Below are positions 4,455 to 30,296 of a stretch of DNA of 64,000 nt, in pieces. Origin of the DNA: Flavobacteriales bacterium (GTDB lineage: Bacteria > Bacteroidota > Bacteroidia > CAIKAF01); assembly GCA_025451235.1 (NCBI GenBank), contig JANWKT010000024.1, forward strand, positions 248,001-312,000, in the 5' to 3' direction. Made by a program: the position numbers and the translations under genes. The notes beneath the pieces are model-generated. The model searched no databases. It was given only the letters and a program-made list of their open reading frames with translations, and was not told where the DNA came from. How positions within the stretch are numbered: the first letter of the stretch is position 1; every line of letters begins with the position of its first letter.

Positions 4455-5201
4455 ATGATCCGGAAATTATTGATATTACTTTGTTTTGTAACCCTTCCTT
4501 TAATGGCCCAGGTATATCCGAACGTTGAAAAAAGAGGGGTTCCCATAACTTCGCTGGATCAATTGCAGGGTGATTGGAAATGTGTGATGGCTGATAGACA
4601 TATTATGCAGGAAGGCGTTACCTCTGATGTACATTTGAATAATGTGAGAATAAAAGGTGACAGTACCTGGTATTTTGAATATCCCTGCAAGTTTTACCGG
4701 TTAGAGGTCTCCAATATGGATTCAGTTTTCAAAACCAATCCAACTTTGGATCACCTGAAATTTCTGCATGATACCCTGGTTATTTGGTCAGACGAATCCG
4801 AAATGGAAGGGTATAGATTTTATGTTCGTGATACGTTTGACCAGAAGATCGTGAACACATTGCTCAGAGATACTGTTTATCTTCCTTCCTTATTTGGTAA
4901 ATGGTATTTACAAACACAGGATTGTATGGACTATTCCGGGAATCCTCCATGGAGAGTTACCTATCCTGTATACATGCCTCCGGTTTATAAACTCGACAAG
5001 GCTGATGTGGTGAACAAGAATACCATTCTCCTGAACATCAATGGAACATTGCGAAAGTTCAAAGTGGTTAGGTGTTCAATCGATGAAGGTTATATTGAAT
5101 TAAAACAGGATGGTTGGTATAAAAACCTTTTTAGGATAGTTACTTATTATGATTGGTACAGAACTCATGATGAGTGTGGAAATGATATTATTTATAGATA
5201 G
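4455..5201 (+). CDS. Secreted protein of unknown function
   Basis: A 248-residue protein with a clear signal peptide (MIRKLLILLCFVTLPLMAQ, cleavage near residue 19). The mature part is rich in aromatic beta strands with two conserved-looking segments, LQGDWKCVMADRHIM and SLFGKWYLQTQDCMDY. Both resemble the G-x-W opening strand of lipocalin-like small barrels, suggesting a two-lobed lipocalin-like fold, but this is inference. No T9SS sorting domain and no lipobox, so it is probably periplasmic. It follows the membrane-protein gene by 8 nt. I do not recognise the family. Confidence 0.7.
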   Translation: MIRKLLILLCFVTLPLMAQVYPNVEKRGVPITSLDQLQGDWKCVMADRHIMQEGVTSDVHLNNVRIKGDSTWYFEYPCKFYRLEVSNMDSVFKTNPTLDHLKFLHDTLVIWSDESEMEGYRFYVRDTFDQKIVNTLLRDTVYLPSLFGKWYLQTQDCMDYSGNPPWRVTYPVYMPPVYKLDKADVVNKNTILLNINGTLRKFKVVRCSIDEGYIELKQDGWYKNLFRIVTYYDWYRTHDECGNDIIYR

Positions 5202-5223
5202 GTGGACCAAGGTGCTTGGCCTA

Positions 5224-5351
5224 GCCCGGGCTGCAGCGGTATCCTTTTTTGTTGTGCTTGCTAACACTTTTGTTTAACCTAAATAGGTTCCGATAGCTAT
5301 CGGGAGATGGGAAACAGCAAGTACAACAAAAAAGATATAGCGGAAGACCGG
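5224..5351. repeat. Structured intergenic element with long inverted repeat and nested hairpins
   Basis: Between convergent genes lies a GC-richer element absent from other gene gaps except for a shared end motif near 30.2 kb. Two 19-nt arms (5244-5262 and 5316-5334) are complementary except for one position that would be G-U in RNA. They enclose two smaller hairpins: AACCT/AGGTT at 5276-5289 and the perfect palindrome CCGATAGCTATCGG at 5290-5303. Outside the arms are the palindrome GCCCGGGC at 5224 and a weaker continuation of the pairing up to CCGG at 5351. It could be a terminator for either neighbour, a dispersed extragenic repeat or a small RNA. Confidence 0.6.
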
Positions 5352-5370
5352 AAACAGCTCCAAAAAACAA

Positions 5371-8300
5371 TTACTTCAATAAAGTAACTTTACCAATATA
5401 GGTATAGGCATTGTCCATGAGATCGATTACGAAAATTTTATAGACATAGACATCCTGTTGGACCACATCGCCGGTCCCTTTAAACCTTCCATTCCAACCG
5501 ATCGATTGATCTTCTGAATGGAAAATTTCTTCTCCCCATTTATCGAAAATGGACATTTTATAGGTTTTAAATCCATGCATTACCGGGAACCATATTTCGT
5601 TTAACTCCGTTCCGTTCGGACTAAATGCATTCGGGATAAAGATGGTGGTCTCACCATAGATCAATACAGGATGCTGCATGGTATCTGTGCAACCAAACTG
5701 ATTAATAGCGACCAATGTTACAATATAAGTTCCTGTATCATTATAGGTATGTATAGGGTCCTGGCTTATATCCGAATTATTATCCCCAAACTGCCAATCC
5801 CACATGGTGGCTCCAATGGATTGATCATAAAAGTTGATCGTTGGTGTAAATATAGAGGCGGTGAACAACGGATCTGCGGTGAACTCTGCCTCCGGTTTTG
5901 GATAAACCACCACCGGATAATTTAAGGTATCTGTCATAACACAGCCATAGCTGGTAGTTAAGGTAAGTATCACAGTATAACTTCCAGGATCATAATAGGT
6001 ATGTGCCGGGTTAGGTGTATAGGTATAATTACTGTCACCGAAATCCCATAACCAATTCACAATGGTTCCACCAGGTACCGTGCTCAGGTCGCTAAATGCA
6101 GTGGTAAATTCTACACAACCACTGGCCACGGTTGGACCGAAATTAAAATCAGGGATCGGTAAAGTGGTTACCAATTGGGTGGCTGTATCTATACAACCTA
6201 AACTGGTGGTAATGATGAGACTCACCGTAAAAGAATCATTTTGGGTTTGCAATACATGATCAGGACTGTATTGGGTAGAGGTAGTTCCGTCCCCAAAATC
6301 CCATTGCGTGTTGGTAATAGTACCATCAGGTGTTACGGATGTATTGTTAAAACTGGTAGTATCGCCCCAACATACAATGCTATTGGTAAAGGAGGCGGTG
6401 GGTTGTCCATAAACGGTAACCGGCTTGATCACAGTATCGGCACATCCATTGGCATCGGTGATCATCAGGGTTACATTAAAGGTGCCGAAAGTTGCATATA
6501 TATGCGAAGGGTTCTGAACGTTGTCAGTAGAGCTATCTCCAAAATCCCAGTTCCAGGCAACCGGCCCACCTGCAGAAATATCGGTAAAGTTTGAAGGTTG
6601 TATCTGACAGGTATTGGCCGTAGTAAAATCAGCCACCGGCAATGGGTTGATGGTAATGGTATCAATGGTGGTGCTAACACATCCTCCATTGGAAGTAACA
6701 TAATGGGTGATGATATACGTTCCGGTATTTGTATAAATATGGGTGGTGTTCAATGCATTTACCAGGGGTGATCCATCACCAAAATCCCAACTGCTGCTGG
6801 CAATAAAGCCGGAGCTAATGGTAGAAGCATCGTTCATCGCCACCGTAGAATTCAAACATGCAGCATTCGGTGCCGAAATATCTGCTATTACATCTGCTAT
6901 CACCACCACTACTCTGAATGATTGATCCGAACAACCAGGACCATTCGAAACCGTTAATGAGCTTAAGTAAGAACCGGGCGCTCCGTAGGTATGTGTTGTA
7001 TTCGGTCCAATGGTATCGGTTTGTCCATCTCCAAAATCCCATAACCAGGAATTAGGCAGACCCGTTGAAAGATCTGTAAAGGAAGTGGGTGAACCAATAC
7101 AAACGGTATCGGTGATATAAATAGAATTCGGTACCACATTTACGGTTACTGGAAGAATAAAAGTACTATCACATCCATTGATGTTGGTAACGGTTAATGA
7201 AACATTGTAGATCCCCGGTGCCAGGAAAATATAATTCGGGTTTTGGGATACTGAATTATTTCCATCATCAAAATCATAGAACCAGGTGGCTATCGCAACC
7301 GAGTCAGTAGATAGATCTGTAAATGAAGTAATATTTCCCTGACAAGTGGTGGTAGCAGTAAACAACGGGACCGGCACTGTATTTACCACAACCGGTAATA
7401 CTACGGTATCTGCACAACCTGCTGAATTTTGCGATATCAGTGTGGTATTATAATTACCACCAGCCGTATAGACATGTACAGGGTTTTGAAGCGTACTCAT
7501 CGGAGTTCCATCACCGAAATCCCAGGTCCAGTTGGTCATAGCAGCTCCCACCGTTTGATCGGTGAACTGCACGGTCTGACCGGCACAAACTGTATTGAAT
7601 GTAAAATTAGCTTGTGGTTGTGGAAGTACGGTGATCAATTGACTGGAAGAGTTCGTGCAACCAAAAATATTGGTGACCAATAAAGTTACATTATAGTTGC
7701 CCGGGTTCGCATATAAATGCGATGGTGATTGAACAGGATCCAGTGGTGATGTATCTCCATAATCCCAGCTCCAGCTCACCGCTCCTGTTGAATTATCAGT
7801 AAATTGGGTTGGATAAGTATGGCAAGCAGTGGTAGCTACATAAGCAGAAACAGGATTTGGGTTGACGATAACAGCATGAACAATGGTATCGGTGCAACCA
7901 AATACATTGGTTACGATGAGTTGAACATTATAGGTCCCTGGTGAGGCATAGGTATGTGTTGGTGAATTGCTGACACTGGTCGATGCATCTCCAAAATCCC
8001 AGTTCCATCCAACAGCAGAAATTGACTGATCAGTAAAAGTAGTAGTTGAATTATGACAAACTGTATCAAAATCAAATGCTGCAATAGGAAGCGGATTCAC
8101 TACTGTATTGATGGTAATCGAATCAACACAGCCAAAAACATTTTCAGTAGTCAGGGTAACCGGATATGTTCCGGGGGCCAGATAAGTATGAGATGGGTTC
8201 TGGGTTGAATTAGTCGGACTTCCATCCCCAAAATTCCAGGTCCATATAGTGGGAGTATTGGTGGTGTTGTCGGTAAAATTAGTGGCAGCGTTTAAACAGG

Positions 8301-11300
8301 GTGTATTACTGGTAAATGCAGGACCCGTATGTGGATAGGAAACTACGGCTATTGTTACACTATTCGTACAACCTGTAAGAGAATAACCGGTGGTTAATAC
8401 TACATTATACGTATTGGCGGTTGCATACACATGTGATGGTGAAGGGTTGTTGGTATTATCAATGGTAGCATCTCCAAAGCTCCAAACGAATGTATTGGGT
8501 CCACCACCTGATGTGCTGTTAAAGAAAGTAGTATCCCCAGAGCAAACCGAACTGAATACAAAACTGGAAGTAGGTACCGGGTTGACCACCACTGCATTTG
8601 TAATGGTATCAGAACACCCACTTCCACCGAAAGCGATGAGTGTTACGTTATAAGTTCCGGCCAAACCATAGGTATGGGTGGGGTTTTGTGCATTGCTAAC
8701 CGGACTTCCATCACCAAAATCCCAGATCCAGTTGATGGGGGTTCCGCTGGTGAGATCCGTAAAATTAGTCGCCTGACCAAAGCAAGCCGTATTGTTATTA
8801 AAGGCGGCAATAGGTACAGCATTCACAATTACTGAATGCGTTATGGAGTTAGTACATCCAAAAGAATTGGTAACTGTAAGAACTACATTATAAGTTCCAT
8901 TGGAACCGTAGGCATGGGTTGGATTAGGTGTGGTCCCCAAAGGAGATCCATCTCCAAAATTCCACGACCAGCTGACAATACTGCCGGTAGAAGTGTTGGT
9001 AAACTGGGTGGCAAATCCTAAACATTCAGTAGTATTGTTGAATCCGGCTGCAGGAACCGAATCCACCACGATCAATTGCAGGACTGTATCCGTGCAAGCA
9101 AATGCTGTAGTAGCAATCAACTGAACCGTATAATTATTAGGTGTGGGGTAAGTATGATTCGGATTAGTAAGTGTACTTGTTGTTGCATCACCAAAGTTCC
9201 AAGCATAAGAAACAGCACCGGAGGAAGTATTAAAGAACATGATATTGGTATTGGCACAAACCGTATCACTGCTTGGCGTAAAAGCTGCCACAGGGTTTGG
9301 ATGCACCGTAACGGGAAGTGTGATACTATCTTCACAACCATTGGCCGCCGTAATAACCAGTGTGATATTATAAATGCTGTCGATGGTGGTTGCAGTATAG
9401 GTTTGAGCAGGCGGGTTTTGCAAAGTAGAAGTAGATCCATTCCCGAAATCCCAGGCATATACATCTCCTGCGGTGAGGACACTTGTATTGGTGATGGTGC
9501 TGGTAACCGGAGAGCAACCTGTATTCGGAACCACCGTAAATCCTGGTGTTGGCAAAGGAGCAATATTGATGAAAGTGGTATCATTCATGATACAACCCAA
9601 TACATTTACTACCAATACCACCATATTATTTCCAGCAGTGTTAAAGGTAATGGGTGGCGGAGAATACACAGCTGAAGTAGCAGGAGTAGCTCCGGCAAAG
9701 GTCCAGTTATAAGTACCGCCCAAGGTTGAATTATTGTTGAAGGTAACTACTAAACCAGCACAACCAGCCGAAAAATCAGGTACAATATCGGCCACCGGAA
9801 TTGGATTAACAGTAACGGTAACAGCTGTCATTGGACTTGTGCAGCCGGCTACCGTGGTTTGTACGTAGTACGTAGTTGTATTAGTTAAAACTGGGGTCGT
9901 ATAGGAAGCGCCGGTTTGTAATAAGGTTCCTGCCACAGGAGCATCATACCATTGATAAGTTCCACCAGGAGCTGTTGCATTCAATGTAGCGGTATTACCT
10001 GTACAAATACTGGTAGAAGCTGCGGTTGGTGCAGCTGGAATTGGATTAACGGTAACTGTTACAGCAGTTCTTGGACCCGTGCATCCAGCAACGGTTGTCT
10101 GCACATAATAAGTAGTAGTAAGGATCAACGGAGGAGTTGTATAGGTAGCTCCTGTATTTAACAAAATACCTCCTACCGGTGCATTGAACCATTCATAAGT
10201 TCCTCCAGGTGCAGTAGCAGTTAAGGTCGCAGAATCCCCGGCACAAATAGTAGTCCCCAAAACAGTGGGAGCAACCGGTGTTGGATTTACCGTAACGGTA
10301 ACTGCAGTTCTTGGACTTGTACAACCCAAAATGGTAGTTTGCACATAATACGTAGTGGTCGTTACCAATACCGGAGTAATATAAGTAGGTCCGGTTTGCA
10401 ACAACGTCCCTCCTACCGGAAGGTCAAACCATTGATACGTTCCACCAGGTGCTGTTGCAGTTAAGGTGGTGGAAGTTCCTGCGCAAATGGAAGCAGGTAA
10501 GGCTGTTGGTGCGGCTGGAATAGGATTGACGGTTACAGTTGCTGATGCAGTATCTGTTCCACAGAAACCGGTTACCGTTAACAATACCGGATAAGTTCCT
10601 GGCAATGGATAGGTTTGCGCAGGTGGGTTAGCTGATGTGGATGTATTTCCGTTTCCAAAAGTCCAGCCATAAACTAAATTGGTTCCTTGTGAGGTTTGTG
10701 TAAAGTTAACGGATCCTCCAGCACAAATGGTGGAGAAAACCGGATTGAGAATAGCCACTACAGGTGGATGCACCGTGATGGTTACCAAGCTGTCATCAAA
10801 ACCACAACCATTGGTAACCCGCAAGCGAATGGTATGCGTGGCGGTTGAATTTCCTGCAGGTGCAGTAAATACCTGGTTGGGTATATTTTGAGAAGTATAC
10901 GTTAATATACCATCAATAAACCATTGATAGGTTAAGTTGCCCCCCACTGAATTATTCACCGTTGTAACTGTTAAGGGAGAACAGCCTACTGTAGGATTTA
11001 CCGTGATCAATGCAGTAGGTATCGTATCAATAATAATAGTTTGATACAACGTATCGGTTCCACATGCATTTCCCGAGATCAGCATAATGGTATAAGTCCC
11101 TGGATTGCTATACAATTGTGGAGGAGGAAATTTAACCCCATTCAATGTATTTCCATTCCCAAAATCCCAATAAAAATTATTTACAGGTGATGCACCTGTC
11201 GTAGTATTTCCAAAGCTTACCATTTGAGGGGCACAGCCTGGCGAAGGGGTAGCTGTAAAGGCAATGACCGGTGCACCTACAATCGTAATAGGACCTACTG

Positions 11301-12450
11301 TTGAGTTGGAGGAATTACAGCTATTGGACGCAACCAGCGAAATCGTATAAGAACCACCAACGGTATATGTATGACTGGGTGGTGTAAAACTTGTAGTAGT
11401 AACAGGAGGAGAACCATCCCCAAAGTTCCATACATACAAACTGGCATTCTGCGATGCATTTACCGGAGTAACCGTATGTGGCACACAACCTGAAAATTGG
11501 ATCAACGGTACACTGAAAGAGGCAGCAACAAATTTATCAAACACCACTGTGAGGGTTCCGGTAGTTGTACAACCGTTGGCTCCAGTAGCTGTCATGGTTA
11601 CCGTATAGGTTCCATAAGCGGTATAGTTATGCACAAAACTAGCAGTAGACCCTGTATTAAAAACGGGAGATCCATCTCCAAAATCCCAACTGTAGGAAAC
11701 TGCTCCGGTAGTAAAATTAAAGAAGGTTACCGGATCAATACTTGTAGTGTCAATGGGAGCTAAACAATAAATGGTATTTCCATCACCATCATCTCCTGCT
11801 ATGTTCACCACTGGTCGAGGAAGCACCGTTACACTCTGGTTGAATGTACTAACACATCCTGCCCCATTGGTTACGGTAAGTACTACGTTGTAGGTCCCCC
11901 CTGCTGCATATACATGAGTAGGACTAATAGCGGTAGAGGTAGTAGCATCCCCAAAATTCCAGGAATAAGTGGTAAAAGCACCGGTACCAGTGGAGGTATT
12001 CGTGAAAGAAATGGTAGTCCCGGCACATTGGTTATTGTTGTTAAATGTAAAATTGGCAACGGGAATGGGGCGAATAAAAACATTTACCACCGTAGTATCC
12101 AGGCATAAAGTTCCTGTATCCTGTGCCACCAGCATATAGGTATAGGTGCCAATGAGCGAAATAGTAGAATTCGAGGGAGCTGCCAGGCCGGTAGTATTAT
12201 CAAACAAAACACCATTTAAATACCAGGCATAATTAGCAGCAGCAGCTCCAGGCCCTGTACTTGTATTTACAAATGAAATGTTGGTGGCTCCCGGTCCGCA
12301 AATAATAGTTTGCGAAGTAGTAAAAGAAGGATTGATGTTAGGGCATTGCGCCAGCAGTTTTTGAGAAAAAAATAAAGTCGAGAAAACAATTAAAAAACAG
12401 TAGAAATATTTTTTACGATAATAGGGTATATGTGGAATAGATAAATTCAC
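5371..12450 (-). CDS. Giant PKD/Ig-repeat surface protein with gliding-motility-type C-terminal domain
   Basis: A roughly 2359-residue exported adhesin-like protein. An N-terminal signal segment (YFYCFLIVFSTLFFSQKLLAQ) is followed by about 22-24 PKD domains, each with a W-x-(W/D)FGDG-type motif and a Y-x-(A/P)GTY-x-V-x-L end. A block of three nearly identical 80-residue Ig-like CHU_C-associated repeats (ICAGTSTTLTATAPGGTYQW type) sits in the first half. The last 90 residues (FIPNAFSPNGTELNEIWFP ... FDKWGEEIFHS ... DVYVYKIFVID) are the gliding motility-associated C-terminal domain (TIGR04131/CHU_C), a known T9SS substrate signal. There is no ATG at the front. I choose the GTG because a near-consensus CAAGTTTG lies 5 nt upstream; an in-frame TTG 42 nt further upstream is the alternative. 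Confidence 0.93.
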   Translation of the reverse strand: MNLSIPHIPYYRKKYFYCFLIVFSTLFFSQKLLAQCPNINPSFTTSQTIICGPGATNISFVNTSTGPGAAAANYAWYLNGVLFDNTTGLAAPSNSTISLIGTYTYMLVAQDTGTLCLDTTVVNVFIRPIPVANFTFNNNNQCAGTTISFTNTSTGTGAFTTYSWNFGDATTSTAISPTHVYAAGGTYNVVLTVTNGAGCVSTFNQSVTVLPRPVVNIAGDDGDGNTIYCLAPIDTTSIDPVTFFNFTTGAVSYSWDFGDGSPVFNTGSTASFVHNYTAYGTYTVTMTATGANGCTTTGTLTVVFDKFVAASFSVPLIQFSGCVPHTVTPVNASQNASLYVWNFGDGSPPVTTTSFTPPSHTYTVGGSYTISLVASNSCNSSNSTVGPITIVGAPVIAFTATPSPGCAPQMVSFGNTTTGASPVNNFYWDFGNGNTLNGVKFPPPQLYSNPGTYTIMLISGNACGTDTLYQTIIIDTIPTALITVNPTVGCSPLTVTTVNNSVGGNLTYQWFIDGILTYTSQNIPNQVFTAPAGNSTATHTIRLRVTNGCGFDDSLVTITVHPPVVAILNPVFSTICAGGSVNFTQTSQGTNLVYGWTFGNGNTSTSANPPAQTYPLPGTYPVLLTVTGFCGTDTASATVTVNPIPAAPTALPASICAGTSTTLTATAPGGTYQWFDLPVGGTLLQTGPTYITPVLVTTTTYYVQTTILGCTSPRTAVTVTVNPTPVAPTVLGTTICAGDSATLTATAPGGTYEWFNAPVGGILLNTGATYTTPPLILTTTYYVQTTVAGCTGPRTAVTVTVNPIPAAPTAASTSICTGNTATLNATAPGGTYQWYDAPVAGTLLQTGASYTTPVLTNTTTYYVQTTVAGCTSPMTAVTVTVNPIPVADIVPDFSAGCAGLVVTFNNNSTLGGTYNWTFAGATPATSAVYSPPPITFNTAGNNMVVLVVNVLGCIMNDTTFINIAPLPTPGFTVVPNTGCSPVTSTITNTSVLTAGDVYAWDFGNGSTSTLQNPPAQTYTATTIDSIYNITLVITAANGCEDSITLPVTVHPNPVAAFTPSSDTVCANTNIMFFNTSSGAVSYAWNFGDATTSTLTNPNHTYPTPNNYTVQLIATTAFACTDTVLQLIVVDSVPAAGFNNTTECLGFATQFTNTSTGSIVSWSWNFGDGSPLGTTPNPTHAYGSNGTYNVVLTVTNSFGCTNSITHSVIVNAVPIAAFNNNTACFGQATNFTDLTSGTPINWIWDFGDGSPVSNAQNPTHTYGLAGTYNVTLIAFGGSGCSDTITNAVVVNPVPTSSFVFSSVCSGDTTFFNSTSGGGPNTFVWSFGDATIDNTNNPSPSHVYATANTYNVVLTTGYSLTGCTNSVTIAVVSYPHTGPAFTSNTPCLNAATNFTDNTTNTPTIWTWNFGDGSPTNSTQNPSHTYLAPGTYPVTLTTENVFGCVDSITINTVVNPLPIAAFDFDTVCHNSTTTFTDQSISAVGWNWDFGDASTSVSNSPTHTYASPGTYNVQLIVTNVFGCTDTIVHAVIVNPNPVSAYVATTACHTYPTQFTDNSTGAVSWSWDYGDTSPLDPVQSPSHLYANPGNYNVTLLVTNIFGCTNSSSQLITVLPQPQANFTFNTVCAGQTVQFTDQTVGAAMTNWTWDFGDGTPMSTLQNPVHVYTAGGNYNTTLISQNSAGCADTVVLPVVVNTVPVPLFTATTTCQGNITSFTDLSTDSVAIATWFYDFDDGNNSVSQNPNYIFLAPGIYNVSLTVTNINGCDSTFILPVTVNVVPNSIYITDTVCIGSPTSFTDLSTGLPNSWLWDFGDGQTDTIGPNTTHTYGAPGSYLSSLTVSNGPGCSDQSFRVVVVIADVIADISAPNAACLNSTVAMNDASTISSGFIASSSWDFGDGSPLVNALNTTHIYTNTGTYIITHYVTSNGGCVSTTIDTITINPLPVADFTTANTCQIQPSNFTDISAGGPVAWNWDFGDSSTDNVQNPSHIYATFGTFNVTLMITDANGCADTVIKPVTVYGQPTASFTNSIVCWGDTTSFNNTSVTPDGTITNTQWDFGDGTTSTQYSPDHVLQTQNDSFTVSLIITTSLGCIDTATQLVTTLPIPDFNFGPTVASGCVEFTTAFSDLSTVPGGTIVNWLWDFGDSNYTYTPNPAHTYYDPGSYTVILTLTTSYGCVMTDTLNYPVVVYPKPEAEFTADPLFTASIFTPTINFYDQSIGATMWDWQFGDNNSDISQDPIHTYNDTGTYIVTLVAINQFGCTDTMQHPVLIYGETTIFIPNAFSPNGTELNEIWFPVMHGFKTYKMSIFDKWGEEIFHSEDQSIGWNGRFKGTGDVVQQDVYVYKIFVIDLMDNAYTYIGKVTLLK
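9803..10522 (-). repeat. Three tandem 240-bp repeats inside the PKD gene
   Basis: Three consecutive copies, at 9803, 10043 and 10283, each exactly 240 bp, encode the 80-residue Ig-like CHU_C-associated domains. The phase is exact: each unit begins with the same GGATT(A/T)AC motif on the plus strand. Protein identity between copies is far higher than between the PKD domains around them, which points to recent duplication or gene conversion. Confidence 0.85.
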
Positions 12451-12647
12451 ATTTTCAAACTTGGGAAAAATATAGGGTTTAAAAATTAACAAGTAAAAAT
12501 AAACTAATTTATTGAATAATAAAAAGTAGAGTTATATACTTATTTATCAGTGGTTTGTTGGCCTAAGAACCTACCTTTCGAAGGGAGCGGTTTCAATTGG
12601 ACGGTAGATTCGTGCTTTTTTATATATTCGTTATTCGGTCCCTTGTT

Positions 12648-30058: not shown

Positions 30059-30296
30059 GTCATCGCGTTTGCCCCAACCTACCTCTTAAAGTAGCATGAC
30101 CCTGTGCCACCTAGCGAAAAGGTAACCTTGATCACCTCAACTTGGCCGGGTTGAGGTCAGGAGGCCCAAAGCTATCTGGACAGGCCAGGCGCATAAACAA
30201 AGGCTATAGCGAAAGAACGGGCCTCCGGCCTAAAAAAAGGAAAAACCTATTCACACTTCTTCAGACCATTCTGTTTGCTTAATCCCTCCAAAAAAT
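30059..30296. other. Structured GC-rich intergenic region
   Basis: No coding region seen. The stretch is GC-richer than its surroundings and has a perfect 8-bp hairpin (ACCTCAAC at 30134 with GTTGAGGT at 30150). A distant 8-bp pairing joins GGAGGCCC at 30160 with GGGCCTCC at 30219. The 16-nt string starting TATAGCG at 30205 matches the end of the structured element at 5336-5351 in 14 of 16 positions. It may be the terminator of the response regulator plus a repeat-family member. Confidence 0.45.

Follow-up and report, generated by a model that had tools for sequence, protein, structure and literature searches.

What is the element with several hairpins that occupies the gap between two genes near the beginning of the window, i.e., the whole 64-kb stretch of DNA analysed here, and to what kind of family does it belong? 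The initial annotation placed it at 5224-5351, suggested a dispersed structured repeat or RNA family, and proposed that Rfam models including Flavo-1 be searched and that other genomic copies and compensatory changes be looked for. When the whole 64-kb window was scanned with Rfam, the single gathering-level match was indeed Flavo-1 (RF01705), located at 5219-5358 on the + strand and covering positions 1-76 of the 76 in the model with 55.3 bits against a cut-off of 42. Our own covariance model (R1), built from 32 elements, assigned 5217-5366 to the same element at 41.7 bits; the structure recognised initially was thus real, but its limits were drawn too narrowly, since both models give a larger extent. 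The window gap is one copy of Flavo-1, a family already in Rfam whose function has never been explained. The Flavo-1 RNA motif was described in 2010 (Weinberg et al., PMC2864571), and no functional study was found in the literature searched for Flavo-1 or RF01705. The features of the gap and its borders are:

5219-5358 (5217-5366 in our own model), + strand: Flavo-1 element, from RF01705 and own model R1
5222-5244, + strand: left hairpin arm with the conserved AGCGG core, from the arm-pattern search and the Rfam alignment
5334-5361, + strand: right arm with an AGCGGA core and the 3' end AGCTCC, from the Rfam alignment and the consensus
5244-5262, + strand: 5' half of the distal stem, the 19-nt repeat of the initial annotation, from the inverted-repeat search (arm I1)
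5316-5334, + strand: 3' half of the distal stem, from the inverted-repeat search (arm I1)
5276-5289, no strand assigned: small tip palindrome, from the inverted-repeat search (I8)
5290-5303, no strand assigned: CCGATAGCTATCGG, a separate dispersed palindrome within the Flavo-1 tip, found at 22 genomic places
4455-5201, + strand: flanking gene of 248 aa without NCBIfam match, ending 17 nt before the element
5371-12492, - strand: flanking gene of 2373 aa with a T9SS type B sorting domain, ending 12 nt after the element

The Flavo-1 copy sits between the stop codons of these two convergent genes. For the 248-aa neighbour no relative was found in the genome contigs searched, and the T9SS type B sorting domain of the other neighbour fits the Bacteroidota occurrence of Flavo-1. 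The left-arm pattern matched the window once, with 2 mismatches, where 0.05 matches were expected. The + strand folded better than its shuffled versions both as RNA (z -4.1) and as DNA (z -6.4), none of 200 shuffles equalling it in either case, and no intrinsic terminator (a GC stem with a T run after it) was found in 5150-5450 on either strand.

The individual repeats reported for this gap were all present. The 19-nt inverted repeat pairs 5244-5262 with 5316-5334 at 95% and has a G-T as its single mismatch, and the two inner perfect hairpins pair 5276-5281 with 5284-5289 and 5290-5296 with 5297-5303. The cloverleaf that they were said to form holds as far as the hairpins are concerned, but the family as such does not have this look, which comes from other palindromes lying in the variable tip. 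The 14-mer CCGATAGCTATCGG, which makes up the larger inner hairpin, was found 22 times in this genome (0 for the reversed control), and at five fetched places its surroundings were unlike Flavo-1 arms; for its larger inner hairpin, the cloverleaf look is therefore explained by a 22-copy repeat nested in the tip. The window copy differs from the RF01705 consensus in having a distal loop of 63 nt, which holds another repeat, instead of 1 nt. The small palindrome at 5276-5289 was absent from the other loci of this genome that were scanned. Two tips were tested for nested repeats, those of the window copy and of copy L002, and both were positive, the tip of L002 holding GACGGGCAATTGCCCGTC, which is found at 6 places in the genome.

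A second claim, that a 16-nt end string of the element has a relative at 30205-30220, failed. The 14/16 identity between the two strings does exist, but Rfam gave no Flavo-1 match there up to E = 5 and our own model, run without filters, did not exceed 1.7 bits. A degenerate 16-mer fitting both strings matched the window 3 times at ≤3 mismatches against 0.94 expected, and 6 of 100 shuffles reached 3 matches, so the string match is not far from chance. The region 30160-30226 is a GC-rich gap upstream of an ORF, is not Flavo-1, and carries a perfect 8-bp inverted repeat (GGAGGCCC / GGGCCTCC) around the TATAGCG string.

The family structure itself is well defined. Across 32 aligned elements the 16 arm pairs were paired in 86.8% of cases compared to 66.8% in shuffles, and the compensatory changes looked for were abundant: 99 double-change cells were counted, whereas shuffles gave 33.7 (0/500 shuffles as high); shifting the pair partners along the alignment abolished this signal. 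Between the pairs lie four purine mismatches that are nearly invariant (A.G 32/32, G.A 32/32, A.G 31/32, and G.A 32/32). By eye, the window copy carries a matched T-A to C-G double change at a pair showing no variation among the 32 elements, and the A.G beside it is mirrored to G.A, a further difference from the RF01705 core. These data show Flavo-1 to be an imperfect, strand-specific hairpin with covarying arms and a tip that is free to vary.

The proposal of a dispersed structured family was likewise borne out by further genomic copies together with the compensatory changes. In this genome, the Rfam model gave at least 8 matches, 2 of them above the cut-off, in a search that under-scored the window copy, and our own model gave at least 18, from a list for which 150 of 888 candidates were scored and which lacks two copies, that of the window and one at C14:95366. 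At least 28 of 198 genomes of the phylum had a Flavo-1 match at E <= 0.001; 22 candidates were scored per genome, so that the counts are lower bounds. Two complete single-contig relatives held at least 38 and at least 30 Rfam Flavo-1 matches, and in these no two-block pattern of replication-strand bias was seen by eye, with the origin unmapped. Among the named records listed, exact arm matches were mostly from Flavobacterium and Chryseobacterium, followed by Kaistella, Polaribacter, Algibacter, Halpernia, and others, and all 80 named records listed with an arm match were flavobacteria or Bacteroidota bins. The window copy therefore agrees with RF01705 both in scoring above the cut-off over the full model and in its Bacteroidota-type distribution. 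Within single genomes of another genus, paralogues were approximately 92-98% alike over approximately 90 bp and had unrelated flanks. At seven loci of genome G185 (L107, L111, L115, L119, L125, L129, and L133), TGAAA, seven bases, and CCC or TCC precede TAGCCC, and this TGAAA...TAGCCC subset is a possible longer left end. An 88-bp query had no match in phage and plasmid collections and one exact arm pattern had none in viral contigs, and the idea of a phage or plasmid passenger was rejected on these grounds.

Individual copies could be followed across species in an 18-kb stretch of one genus. This stretch was searched in 61 genomes, and 11 genomes with long matches together with G185 formed a selected set of 12, in which sites A and B were each filled in 10/12, site C in 8/12, and site D in 2/12, absence meaning no model match at E <= 0.05 in the fetched stretches. 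At the same site in different species, flanks and outer arms are kept, while the inner stem may differ wholly, the interior being replaced and yet remaining an inverted repeat; the pairs L004/L023, L054/L132, and L049/L130 show the same, and the nearly constant site B is the exception. At site B (L135:3790-4540), Flavo-1 lies between copies of a palindromic repeat like CCTACAAGGTTTTGAAAACCTTGCAGG, and genome G269 is without the stretch between these copies. Sites without Flavo-1 occur and have ragged boundaries, and the target-duplication comparison was made on these sites only. The preserved flanks and arms, the replaced interiors, and the paralogues with unrelated flanks together indicate that Flavo-1 is dispersed, long retained, and internally remodelled. 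In the site D gap (L135:8253-8372), several genomes carry a long palindrome other than Flavo-1, made up of GTCATTCCGAGGAACGAGGAATC and its complement. Upstream of alaS, a genus-mate has a Flavo-1 (L020), and the orthologous place in this genome (L027:1305-1375) has the same outer arms with a different inner stem.

Does the element act on its neighbours, and on which strand does it work? Two sets of copies were compared with the orientation of adjacent genes. Set 1 (92 rows, compiled without L135, without loci numbered L184 and above, and without one partner of each orthologous pair) comprised 68 copies once 9 lying at contig edges and 15 that overlap a possible ORF had been dropped. Set 2 (80 matches) comprised 62, as 6 each were dropped because no right arm was found, because of an edge position, or because of overlap with a possible ORF. 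Tandem sense, antisense, divergent, and convergent placements numbered 22, 21, 14, and 11 in set 1 and 18, 18, 15, and 11 in set 2. No conserved promoter was found upstream of 74 copies, TAnnTTTG occurring in 7/74 compared to 103/2000 in the background. The unbiased orientation and the lack of a promoter motif argue against both a cis-acting RNA and an sRNA driven by its own promoter, and a cis-regulatory RNA or neighbour-gene switch was rejected on the sense/antisense ratios of 22/21 and 18/18. The window copy is neither a neighbour-gene switch nor an intrinsic terminator. As to the strand, G.T outnumbered A.C in the tips by 25:2 in the 67 stems of set 2 and by 17:13 in 88 stems of a first collection drawn by a different search. 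The latter divides into 7:2 in 75 short stems and 10:11 in 13 long tips, from which the A.C mismatches of that collection mainly come, and a reading of 17:13 as evidence against RNA was given up on these results; the same crude count gave 14:5 in 26 SRP RNA sequences, which does not differ significantly from 17:13 (Fisher p 0.36). The excess of G.T in short tips suggests that the element strand, and not its complement, is under selection for single-strand folding. Such strand-specific tolerance of G.T is compatible with both single-stranded DNA and RNA.

Our favoured interpretation is that Flavo-1 is a strand-specific dispersed hairpin with an exchangeable tip. In its full form, to which we would give about an even chance, it is a dispersed intergenic hairpin that folds from a single strand, with arms read by a putative cellular factor and tips that are exchanged. 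The element strand would fold while single-stranded, either as lagging-strand or repair DNA or in a read-through transcript; a putative factor would recognise the arms with their purine mismatches; and tips may be exchanged by template switching or by copying between palindromes. Recognition of the arms would account both for the long retention and for the spread into gene gaps regardless of orientation. Against this interpretation, no mobilising enzyme was found, empty sites have ragged ends, and G.T does not clearly exceed A.C in long tips (10:11) or in the whole first collection (17:13); strand-specific tolerance of G.T would suit RNA as well. Many copies are also old and have come down by vertical inheritance, so that present-day movement is hypothetical.

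A further reading, which we put forward tentatively and consider somewhat improbable, is that Flavo-1 is a landing pad, i.e., a strand-specific single-stranded DNA hairpin rather than a classical RNA gene, whose tip takes up other palindromes. The conserved purine mismatches would then be read by a hypothetical Bacteroidota enzyme, and repeats would come to nest inside repeats.

It is also possible, though on the whole doubtful, that Flavo-1 acts as RNA, either as a trans-acting sRNA or as a protein-binding UTR hairpin that has been multiplied, the mismatches forming the protein site. Rfam lists Flavo-1 as an sRNA, and the strong covariation of the arms and the preference for G.T in short tips are in line with such a function, but neither the unbiased orientation to genes nor the 74 copies without a conserved promoter upstream are expected from it. 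Moreover, G-U pairs are rarer in Flavo-1, at 9/443 cells, than in the SRP RNA of this phylum, at 80/858 standard cells (57/830 when one constant U-G pair is excluded), as counted in alignment A2 of 28 of 30 SRP loci (L231 and L233 left out) with G-U sums added by hand. The passages on Flavo-1 in the F. psychrophilum transcriptome study point both ways, reporting several 5' transcribed regions that coincide with Flavo-1, but also hits in sense and antisense, many of them outside transcribed regions (PMC9723704).

Neutral fossil palindromes offer an improbable account, in which template switching within hairpins keeps correcting old copies, gene gaps tolerate them, and no factor reads them. The wholesale replacement of tips that nevertheless remain inverted repeats is in line with this account, as is the fact that no autonomous partner with separated arms was seen in approximately 0.99 Mb of examined sequence; the latter negative is a weak one, because a strict regular expression scored 30 left arms as solitary and 106 as paired with a right arm, and many of the 30 show a missed right arm by eye. 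However, correction by template switching would erase the purine mismatches, which are nearly invariant, and neither the G.T bias of short tips nor a site filled in 10 of 12 species agrees with the fossil account.

Finally, that Flavo-1 is REP/REPIN-like and mobilised by a Y1 (RAYT) transposase is very unlikely, for although Flavo-1 is palindromic, intergenic, and present in many copies, and this genome has five Y1 transposase genes (L025-L029), one of them beside a degenerate Flavo-1-like alaS hairpin (by eye), Flavo-1 was found by our own model within approximately 1.5 kb of a Y1 transposase at only 3/35 loci, no Y1 transposase match was obtained in two genomes that hold at least 21 copies, and REP tags were at background (approximately 5%), with GTAG at 5/115 and CGTC at 1/115 left ends and 3/115 each at right ends. 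Among the five transposase loci of this genome, our own model found one Flavo-1 (L025) and the Rfam model none at E <= 1. Both RAYT mobilisation, on account of the few nearby loci and the two high-copy genomes, and a tagged REP, on account of the tag rates, were consequently rejected. Several Y1 genes are ringed by their own short palindromes, e.g., GACCCC..GGGGTC around L029, which look like private REP families.

Compared to known systems, Flavo-1 resembles ERIC/MITE-type intergenic palindromes, which are hairpins of approximately 70-160 bp lying in gene gaps in either orientation and in tens of copies, in size, placement, orientation, and copy number. It differs from them in that its purine mismatches are conserved and its base pairs covary strongly, in having no autonomous partner in the approximately 0.99 Mb examined, and in its ragged empty sites. 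With REP/REPIN elements, as they are portrayed in passages of PMC3733652, it shares imperfect palindromes in gene gaps, tens of copies, and strand-specific irregularities, but it is longer (approximately 70-160 bp compared to 20-40) and has neither a GTAG/CGTC tag nor a dependence on Y1 transposase. In conclusion, the evidence shifts Flavo-1 from an sRNA towards a REP-like dispersed hairpin; automatic annotation of sRNAs may thus count a repeat as genes, and a striking multi-hairpin structure can arise where one repeat lies inside another.
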